Below, one piece after another: positions 43,621-46,827 of a stretch of 64,000 nucleotides of DNA; the first letter of the stretch is position 1; each line of letters opens with the position of its first letter. The notes under the pieces were generated by a model that saw only the letters and a program-made list of their open reading frames with translations, was not told the DNA's origin and did no database searches. The position numbers and the translations under genes were made by a program. Source of the DNA: Deltaproteobacteria bacterium. Its GTDB lineage: Bacteria > Myxococcota_A > Polyangia > Polyangiales > Polyangiaceae. The stretch lies in NCBI GenBank assembly GCA_016875405.1, contig VGRJ01000001.1:1-64000 (forward strand), given 5' to 3'.

Positions 43621-43961
43621 TCAGGCGTTCGTCGACGGGGTCGACGGAGCCGGCGGCACGGCGGGTGCCGCAGCAGGAACCGGAGCAGCCTTCACGAGCG
43701 GCGCGGCCACCGGGGGCTTCACAGAGGGCTTCTTCGCAGGAGCCTTCTTCGCCACCGACTTCTTTGCCGGCTTCTTCGCAGAGGTTTTTTTAGCGCGAGC
43801 GGGCGCCTTTGCCGCCTGCTTCCGCGTCGCGCTCAGGCTTTTTTTGCGGCCTTCTTCGCGGGGGCCTTCTTGGCGGCCTTCTTCGGAGCAGCCTTCTTCG
43901 CGGGGGCCTTCTTGGCGGCCTTCTTCGGAGCAGCCTTCTTCGCGGTCTTCTTCGCAGCCAT
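43621..43961 (-). CDS. histone H1-like Lys/Ala-rich protein, requires -1 frameshift at A7
   Basis: MAAKKTAKKAAPKKAAKKAPAKKAA... in frame 0 to TGA at 43835-43833; -1 frame continues KKSLSATRKQAAKAPARAKKTSAKKPAKKS...; RBS AGGAGG upstream. Confidence 0.72.
43858..43941 (-). repeat. two perfect 42-bp tandem repeats
   Basis: gcgggggccttcttggcggccttcttcggagcagccttcttc x2 within the histone-like gene. Confidence 0.92.
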
Positions 43962-44053
43962 GTTCAAATCCTCCTGGACCTGTCGCGTCGGTTGCCTCCT
44001 CGTGTCTGCCAGCGGGCAAACGTGGAAGGAGCAGGGCAACAGATGTTGCAAGA

Positions 44054-44083
44054 CGTATAGTGCCATCTATGGCAGACCGTCAA
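44054..44083 (-). promoter_or_regulatory. candidate sigma-70-type promoter with operator palindrome in spacer
   Basis: Minus strand TTGACG-N18-TATACG; spacer contains TGCCAT-AG-ATGGCA. Confidence 0.55.
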
Positions 44084-44209: not shown

Positions 44210-45022
44210 ATGACGACGAAGATCTTGGCGATCCTGGGGGTCGCGGCGACGCTCTTCGGCAGCGGCTGCGGCTATTCGGAGGAAGAGATGCGCGCGCGGC
44301 TGCGTGACATCGAGGGGCTGCGCCAGCAGCTCGCTGCCGAGGGCGCGAACAACAAGAAATTCCAGCGCGAGCTCGACGAGGCGCGGACCCAGATCGAGCA
44401 GCTGAAGAGCCAGCTGTCGGACGCAAACGTCGACGTCGCGAACCTGAAGAGTGACGTCGAGGAGAAGGCGAAGGCCCTCGAGGAGTACAAGCGGCGCGCC
44501 GCGCAGCTCGAGGAGATCCGACGTCGGTTCGACCTCTTGCGCTCGAAGCTGCAGGATCTCACCCGCCTCGGCCTCAAGGTCACCCTGCGCCACAACAGGA
44601 TGGTGATCGAGCTGCCGGGCGATGTGCTCTTCGACTCCGGGCGCGAGACGTTGAAAAAGCAGGGCGAGGAGATCCTGCTCAAGATCGCTGACGTCGTGCG
44701 GCGCGACCCGGCGCTCATGGAGCGTGATTTCCAGGTCGCCGGCCACACCGACAGCCAGGCCTACGGCGTCGGTCCGTTCAAGGACAACTGGGGCCTTAGC
44801 GTCATGCGTGCCCGCGAGGTGTTGAGCTTCCTCGTCCGTCCGGAGGACAAGAAGGGCGGCGGATTGAAGCCCGAGCGGTGGAGCGCCTCCGGCTACGGGG
44901 ACACCGATCCCATCGCCGCAAACGACTCGCCCGAGGGGCGACAGTCGAACCGTCGCTGCGAGCTCGTCGTACTACCAAAGCTTGAAGAAATGCTGGATCT
45001 GAAGTCGATCACCGGCGAGTGA
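44210..45022 (+). CDS. OmpA family lipoprotein
   Basis: FGSGCGYSEEE lipobox; coiled coil; VLFDSGRETLKKQGEEILLKIADVV...VAGHTDSQ...WGLSVMRAREVLSFL. Confidence 0.9.
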   Translation: MTTKILAILGVAATLFGSGCGYSEEEMRARLRDIEGLRQQLAAEGANNKKFQRELDEARTQIEQLKSQLSDANVDVANLKSDVEEKAKALEEYKRRAAQLEEIRRRFDLLRSKLQDLTRLGLKVTLRHNRMVIELPGDVLFDSGRETLKKQGEEILLKIADVVRRDPALMERDFQVAGHTDSQAYGVGPFKDNWGLSVMRAREVLSFLVRPEDKKGGGLKPERWSASGYGDTDPIAANDSPEGRQSNRRCELVVLPKLEEMLDLKSITGE

Positions 45023-45081
45023 CCGACGACGTGGCGCGGCGCTCGCGGTGAACTTCGAGCCCGCGGGAGAGGAGCTCGAAC

Positions 45082-46014
45082 GTGAAGTCGCGCGTCGCCA
45101 CCATCGACATCGGAACGAACTCCGTGCTGCTCCTCGTCGCGGCGCGGGATGGCCAGCACGTCCGGGCGCTGGTCGAGCGCGCCACCATCACCCGCCTTGG
45201 CGAAGGCGTCGATCGAACGGGCGAGCTCGCACCCGCGGCGGTCGAGCGGACGCTCGCTTGCTTGCGCGAGTACGCCGACGAGATCGGACGCTGGGACGTC
45301 GACGCCGTGGCCGCCGTGGGCACGAGCGCGATGCGCGACGCCGCGGGCGGCGAGGCCTTCTGTGACGCCGCCGAAGCCGTGCTCGGGGCGCGACCGAGCG
45401 TCATCAGCGGCGAGCGCGAGGCGCAGCTCACCTTCGACGGAGCGCTCATGGGCCTCGAGCCGGAGGGCGTGCTCGCGGTGTTCGACATCGGCGGCGGCAG
45501 CACCGAGATCATCGTCGGTGCGCGCATCGGCCGCGGCCGGGGGACCCTCGCTCGCGCCAAGAGCCTCGACATCGGCGCGGTGCGCCTCACGGAGCGCCAC
45601 GTCCGACACGACCCGCCGCTGCCCTCCGAGCTCGACGCGATCCGCCGCGCTGTTCGCGACGCCCTGAAGGACGCGCCCTCGATGCGAGGCCGACCGCTCG
45701 TCGGCGTCGCAGGCACCGTGACGACGCTGACCGCGTTCGCGCACGGCATCGCGCCCTACGACGCTCGGCAGGTGCACGGAGCCGTGCTGTCGCGCGTGGC
45801 GCTCGGAGAGGCGGTCGCGACCCTGGCCGCAACGCCGCTCGAGGAGCGAAGGCAGCTCGCCGCCATCGAGCCAAAGCGCGCGGACGTGATCGTCGCTGGC
45901 GGCATCCTGGCCGAGGAGCTGTGCGACGCGGCGGAGGCGGACCGCTTGATCGCGTCCGACCGCGGCGTGCGTTGGGGGCTCGCGCTGGAATGCCTGGACG
46001 AGCCGACGCGTTGA
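45082..46014 (+). CDS. Ppx/GppA family phosphatase
   Basis: VATIDIGTNSVLLLVAA; AVGTSAMRDA; VFDIGGGSTEIIVG. Confidence 0.92.
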   Translation: MKSRVATIDIGTNSVLLLVAARDGQHVRALVERATITRLGEGVDRTGELAPAAVERTLACLREYADEIGRWDVDAVAAVGTSAMRDAAGGEAFCDAAEAVLGARPSVISGEREAQLTFDGALMGLEPEGVLAVFDIGGGSTEIIVGARIGRGRGTLARAKSLDIGAVRLTERHVRHDPPLPSELDAIRRAVRDALKDAPSMRGRPLVGVAGTVTTLTAFAHGIAPYDARQVHGAVLSRVALGEAVATLAATPLEERRQLAAIEPKRADVIVAGGILAEELCDAAEADRLIASDRGVRWGLALECLDEPTR

Positions 46015-46067
46015 TCTCGGAAGGCGGAGGCGGCTGCCTAGTCGAACTCTGTCCGGGTGGAAAGTTC

Positions 46068-46096
46068 TTGACGAATCGACGCGTGTTTACTAAGGT
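46068..46096 (+). promoter_or_regulatory. candidate sigma-70-type promoter upstream of CarD-family gene
   Basis: TTGACG-N17-TAAGGT. Confidence 0.45.
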
Positions 46097-46320
46097 TCGC
46101 CGCGCCTAGCGCGTCGAATGTCCACCGGGACGCAGTTGCAGGCCCAACGGCAACAAGACCCACCAACCACCAGCGGAAGAGCCGCTGACGCCTTCGACCG
46201 GACTGCTCCGGAACCGCCGGCGCCATCGCTCGAACGCTAGGCATCGAAGGACGCGCACTCCTGCGCGTCGACGAGGACGTGCCCAAGGCGCGCAGGCATC
46301 GAGAAGGAGAGATACCGAAC

Positions 46321-46827
46321 ATGCAGGCCAATGCAGACGTTCAGTTCAAGGTCGGCGACAAGGCGGTCTACCCCGCGCAGGGCGTGGCCGAGGTCGTGGA
46401 CATCGAGGAGAAGGACATCGCCGGGAATCGGCAGCGCTTCTACGTCCTGCGCATCCTCGACACGGACCGTAAGATCATGGTGCCGGTCAAGAACGCGAAC
46501 GCCGTCGGCCTCCGACAGGTGATCTCGGAGCAGGAGATCCAGGAGATCTTCGACATCCTCCGCGAGCGTACGATCGCGTTCGACAATCAGACCTGGAACC
46601 GCCGCTACCGCGGGTTCATGGACAAGATCAAGACGGGCTCGATCTACGACGTCGCCGAGGTGCTCCGTGACCTCTACCGTCTGAAGACCGACAAGCAACT
46701 CTCCTTCGGCGAGCGACGCATGCTGGACACCGCGCGCACGCTGATCGTGAAGGAGATCGCGATCGCCCGGAACCAGACCGAAGAGAACGTGAAGAACGAG
46801 ATCGAAGCGATCTTCTTCACGAACTGA
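46321..46827 (+). CDS. cdnL: CarD family transcriptional regulator (CdnL-like)
   Basis: FKVGDKAVYPAQGVAEVVDIEEKDIAGNRQRFYVLRIL...DLYRLKTDKQLSFGERRMLDTARTLIVKEIA; RBS GAAGGAGA. Confidence 0.92.
   Translation: MQANADVQFKVGDKAVYPAQGVAEVVDIEEKDIAGNRQRFYVLRILDTDRKIMVPVKNANAVGLRQVISEQEIQEIFDILRERTIAFDNQTWNRRYRGFMDKIKTGSIYDVAEVLRDLYRLKTDKQLSFGERRMLDTARTLIVKEIAIARNQTEENVKNEIEAIFFTN

Follow-up and report, generated by a model that had tools for sequence, protein, structure and literature searches.

Is a histone H1-like gene that stops early in frame 0, and whose second half is reachable only via a −1 shift at a run of adenines, one gene with two products? The question is raised by the minus strand of a stretch of 64,000 nucleotides, referred to here as the window. 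The best explanation, which we hold to be probable, is one gene with programmed −1 recoding at A_AAA_AAA and two products; judged from the sequences, the short and the long protein are probably made on purpose. A sequence-only reading of the locus had proposed a −1 frameshift or transcriptional slippage as a candidate, and this is now supported in that the tail is conserved as protein and the layout is kept in the closest relatives. The sequence, coordinates, frames and lengths claimed there were recovered unchanged, with 42 aa for the short form, 113 aa for the long form and a −1 frame that is open to 43621, and the A7 at 43845-43839 was reconfirmed to lie in the X XXY YYZ phase.

Anatomy of the split gene

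The features of the gene and its surroundings are summarized in Table 1. Frame 0 ends with GCA AAA AAA GCC TGA, and the long product carries a net charge of +34. With regard to lysine codons in the head, AAA is used only twice, both times within the slip site, and AAG is used for the other 16. Only about 37 runs of at least seven A's were counted in the 5.02-Mb assembly, two of them within the H1-like gene. Since A runs are rare genome-wide, AAA codons occur only at the site and four other species have the same layout, the slip run is regarded as more than chance. The genome of the window carries both tRNA-Lys(UUU) and tRNA-Lys(CUU).

Table 1. Coordinates of the split histone H1-like gene and associated features in the window.
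Feature	Position	Strand	Basis
Conserved upstream region: promoter-like TTGACG (44083-44078) and TATACG (44059-44054); inverted repeat GCAACATCTGTTGC (44049-44036)	44036..44083	−	Alignment
Shine-Dalgarno sequence CCAGGAGG upstream of ATG 43961	43977-43970	−	Sequence; rated good
Head of 41 frame-0 codons, from the ATG through the second slip-site AAA, common to both products	43839..43961	−	Sequence
Short-product ORF, 42 aa, net charge +18, ends GCC TGA	43833..43961	−	Translation
Slip site A_AAA_AAA (A7, G next)	43839..43845	−	Sequence and relatives
0-frame stop TGA, one codon past slip site	43833..43835	−	Kept in four species
Predicted stimulatory stem-loop, 43833-43822 AGCGCGAcGCGG / 43802-43792 CCGCUCGCGCU, 11 bp, one bulged C	43792..43833	−	Predicted fold
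−1-frame tail, 72 codons and stop TGA; base 43839 read twice	43621..43839	−	Conserved −1 frame
Divergent OmpA-family gene, synteny anchor for the H1-like gene across the order	44210..45022	+	Locus comparison

In-frame translation would give a 42-aa peptide with a charge of +18 that ends in AAKKA. If the ribosome slipped back by one base at AAA AAA, aided by the predicted stem-loop 5 nt downstream, the 113-aa protein would be made. This long protein would bear the ancestral second half, with further basic repeats that are followed in most species by an acidic end of the PPNF..DDESE type; the acidic end is found in relatives and is absent from the window's own species. Re-initiation or coupling as a route to the tail was rejected, as no −1-frame ATG, GTG or TTG lies 11 codons or fewer from the stop in any of G000, G004, G001 and G003, and none is shared.

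A second A7 is located within the −1 tail (43785-43791, minus strand, GCT AAA AAA ACC), 54 bases past the slip site. At this position, AAGAAA was found in G004 and A6 in G001, so the second A7 is specific to the window's species.

Conservation of the split layout

The orthologues in congeners were found by a DNA search of relatives, with separate lake MAGs of freshwater myxobacteria as their source. The split layout, consisting of a slip run, a stop just after it and a −1 tail, was present in five species, namely the window's species, three congeners and one species of a neighboring genus (G076). An alignment of close relatives had been offered in the sequence-only reading as its own means of refutation; in this alignment, all three elements of the layout were retained, and a single frame was encountered only in other genera. 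The slip runs are A7, A7, A7 and A9 within the genus and A8G in the neighboring genus, with the slippery heptamer in the 0-frame phase reading A_AAA_AAA in four species and A_AAA_AAG in G076. The 0-frame stop is TGA in the four species of the genus and TAA, directly behind the run, in G076.

At the slip site, G004 and G001 have an identical GCCGCAAAAAAAGCCTGAGCGCGACGCGGAAGCAGG. The Baikal species (G003) has GCCGCAAAAAAAAACTGAGTTCGAGC, where AAC replaces GCC as the post-slip codon and the run becomes A9 with its phase unchanged. In G076, AGT AAA AAA AAG TAA is followed by a −1 tail of 92 codons ending in LPPNFGPYGDESE; in its head of 74 codons, 32 lysines are encoded by AAG, and AAA codons are confined to the slip site. 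Two further genomes of the neighboring genus, G075 and G077, break off at contig ends. The long form comprises 127-150 aa in the congeners, with a charge of up to +39 in 150 aa.

A search for the slip-site pattern with one mismatch allowed covered 183 genomes of the order and gave matches in 4, each belonging to the window's genus; the pattern is carried by the named MAG records Polyangiaceae RH-23may17-336 and ZH-3nov15-113 and Myxococcales Baikal-deep-G134. Two other matches, in a Micrarchaeota MAG and a Proteobacteria MAG, were attributed to chance in unrelated contexts, and a K-rich +1 continuation in G033 was set aside as a low-complexity contig end. Four of the five genomes sampled from the genus showed the split layout; the fifth is 67% complete, and the orthologous locus was not found there. 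The neighboring OmpA proteins are only 62-77% identical between the four species of the genus, which argues that the conservation of the slip site is not mere recency.

Predicted stem-loop and route of the proposed frameshift

The predicted stem starts 5 nt past the A7, behind the spacer GCCUG, and was calculated at about −22 kcal/mol. Bacterial frameshift stimulators usually start 5-8 nt downstream (PMC4066793). A different stem, GCCTG/CAGGC, had been named earlier as following the slip site; it did not hold up, as it starts 0 nt downstream without a spacer and does not occur in the predicted fold. In three species, stem and spacer are invariant, with variation in 0 of 23 stem columns vs. 5 of 19 loop columns (p 0.014). 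Within the gene, the stem window ranks 20 of 459, 18 of 570 and 10 of 528 in the three species (top 2-4%). The fold stability was unremarkable in comparison with composition-matched shuffles (z = 0.22), and the argument for the stem therefore rests on its position and conservation. No covariation was seen in the stem among these three species, in which it does not vary.

For G003, no stem was found at the usual spacing, and its A9 may need none. In G076, a 5-bp stem with a UUCG loop, GAGCG(UUCG)CGCUC, lies 8 nt downstream in short folds only; longer folds favor other pairings. An upstream Shine-Dalgarno-like stimulator was found in none of G000, G004 and G001, and G003 has only a weak GGCGG. 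The Rfam search returned only a sub-threshold match, located far upstream on the other strand.

The same long protein would also result from programmed transcriptional slippage, in which the RNA polymerase adds one A (A7 to A8, A9 to A10) and the transcript is translated ordinarily. The long peptide would be identical, and the lack of a stem at the usual spacing in G003 is consistent with this route. The A8 of G076 and the A9 of G003 fall within the run lengths at which polymerase slippage is listed (more than 7 A's; PMC3711429); however, the exact A7 in three of the five species lies at the edge of this range. Furthermore, the three A7 species keep the 5-nt spacer and a stem of the type that stimulates ribosomal shifting (PMC4066793), and all five species share the phase A_AAA_AAA / A_AAA_AAG. 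The exact A7 and the conservation of phase, spacer and stem favor the ribosomal route, and slippage by the polymerase, for which the A8 and A9 leave room, is considered less likely. As to efficiency, E. coli cassettes of an unrelated gene gave 10% frameshifting with A7 and 40% with A9 (PMC3711429), and A_AAA_AAA is much less slippery than A_AAA_AAG in E. coli (PMC5009743). For the programmed −1 recoding that we prefer, we infer that it would be mainly ribosomal, that both products would be made, and that the isoforms would bind or compact DNA differently.

Origin of the tail and selection

Across the whole order, the H1-like gene and the OmpA-like gene sit back to back in divergent orientation, which allows the orthologue to be identified in other genera. 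At this OmpA locus, more than 50 further orthologues are single open frames of 37-201 aa, and many of these finish in acidic SDESE, DDGEE or SDEE. In the close, single-frame genus g43, the protein ends in LPLPPNFGGGDESE or LPMPPNFGGGDESE, and the −1 tails of the three congeners end in MPPKFSVDDESE, MPPNFSVDDDSE and MPPNFGMDDEAE. The g43 C-terminus and the −1 tails have the same PPNF..DESE motif, and in an end-anchored match to g43, the tails of the three congeners beat all 20,000 shuffles. Given the single-frame orthologues elsewhere and a g43 protein ending in the same motif, the −1 tail, as read from this comparison, is the old C-terminus; the long product is accordingly read as the ancestral protein and the short product as derived. 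In the OmpA tree, the split species and the single-frame g43 fall into one clade (support 96/97), and the tree fits one origin with later re-fusion as well as two origins.

The window's C-terminus STPSTNA (43621-43665, minus strand) stands where all other split orthologues have an acidic DDESE-type end. Because VDPVDER is encoded in another frame at this place, a late indel at the C-terminus in the window's species is possible.

For pairs of tails compared in the −1 frame, dN/dS values were 0.27-0.40, and a third-position excess was found in every pair (p 0.001-0.04), with both measures taken from alignments with repeats and from non-independent pairs. By these measures, purifying selection acts on the −1 reading of the tail. 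Over the last six head codons and the first 17 tail codons, synonymous change was below that of the neighboring OmpA gene (p 0.003, 0.001 and 0.005); in comparison with the rest of the H1-like gene, the suppression at the site was significant in only one of three pairs.

The selection on the tail bears on the possibility of a decayed gene, in which an ancestral indel truncated the protein and left the short form as the only product, with the tail as a mere remnant. Loss of the tail is tolerated, as many family members at the locus have only short H1-like proteins of 37-66 aa, and the C-terminus of the window is unlike that of its relatives. Decay is nevertheless improbable in view of a tail that is open in five species, with its third-position excess and a dN/dS of about 0.4 or less, a terminal motif that is kept in four of the five split species, and a slip run that persists through substitutions. 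Homopolymers are error-prone, and an assembly or sequencing indel could hide a true A8, but the same phase in five assemblies with differing run lengths and contexts, from separately named MAG projects, renders an error very unlikely. A phase-variable homopolymer, whose run length would toggle the split and fused states at the DNA level, would fit the position of the run at the frame junction and is hardly credible, given that all five genomes show the split phase and that the longer G003 run is explained by phase-keeping substitutions.

Paralogues and upstream region

The genome of the window harbors a 36-aa paralogue that resembles the short form, ends in AAKKA and has AAG AAG at the position matching the slip site. 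A second, short H1-like paralogue with the same KKA-TGA end in one frame was observed in G000 (contig C40:12016-12144, L050), G001 (C29, L051) and G004 (C4, L052), and further H1-like stretches exist elsewhere in these three genomes.

Upstream of the split gene, the TTGACG/TATACG pair and the inverted repeat are strongly conserved; the repeat takes the form GCAACAGCTGTTGC in G003, and close versions of the upstream elements are present in G076 and G052. The sequence elements of this region suggest a promoter and an operator placed at or past the transcription start. The divergent neighbors (44210-46827, plus strand) are genes for an OmpA-family protein, a Ppx/GppA phosphatase and a CarD-type regulator. 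The vicinity of a Ppx-family gene is worth mentioning, because the H1-like protein AlgP organizes polyphosphate granules in Pseudomonas (PMC9239181).

Comparison with known systems and implications

Few ordinary chromosomal genes of bacteria show well-supported −1 recoding, and the known cases are mostly mobile elements and phages. The −1 recoding mechanism itself is already known. With dnaX of E. coli and its two-ORF A-run forms in Chlorobi, the H1-like gene shares an A-rich Lys-Lys slip site in the X XXY YYZ phase, a nearby stop, a downstream stem-loop (here a predicted one) and two proteins with a common N-terminus. However, the two genes are unrelated, no Shine-Dalgarno stimulator was found here, and in E. 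coli dnaX the shifted product is shorter than the in-frame one, whereas the shifted product of the H1-like gene is the long one. The magnesium chelatase frameshift genes (Antonov et al. 2013, PMC3711429) likewise consist of two ORFs connected through a −1 shift at a stretch of 7-11 A's, with a fused gene in relatives, but they encode enzyme subunits instead of a DNA-binding-type protein, and there is no short basic product. Similar to the H1-like gene, copA of E. coli (PMC5009743) is a non-mobile chromosomal gene with a −1 frameshift and two products from one start; its shift yields the shorter (70-aa) product, whereas the shift extends the H1-like protein.

With regard to protein families, AlgP (Pseudomonas), Hc2 (Chlamydia) and the Burkholderia H1-like proteins are likewise Lys/Ala/Pro-rich, of low complexity and strongly basic. 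In contrast to these, the protein of the window stays below the family cut-offs, with 13.5 bits for the long form against the HC2 family Pfam PF07382 (cut-off 40) and 14.8 bits against NCBIfam NF038053 (cut-off 80), and its length leaves no room for an N-terminal helical domain of the AlgP type. No report on recoding of AlgP, Hc2 or Burkholderia H1-like proteins was found, and the full-text open-access literature yielded nothing on programmed ribosomal frameshifting with histone H1-like proteins. Judged by title and abstract, none of the open-access papers containing both 'histone H1-like' and 'frameshift' deals with recoding such genes, and histones are absent from the main text of a large survey of prokaryotic frame transitions. 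An H1-like protein is likely to be new as a client gene of recoding.

For annotation, the consequence is that gene callers would report split H1-like genes as proteins of 32-74 aa and miss the conserved half. If the recoding is true, it adds a DNA-binding-type protein with a visible before and after, i.e., single-frame orthologues at the locus vs. a recoding clade. Tentatively, a conserved recoding switch may set the ratio of the short basic to the long acidic-tailed isoform of a chromatin-type protein, and this ratio might respond to Lys-tRNA charging or translation rate, which would tie nucleoid packing to the nutrient state.
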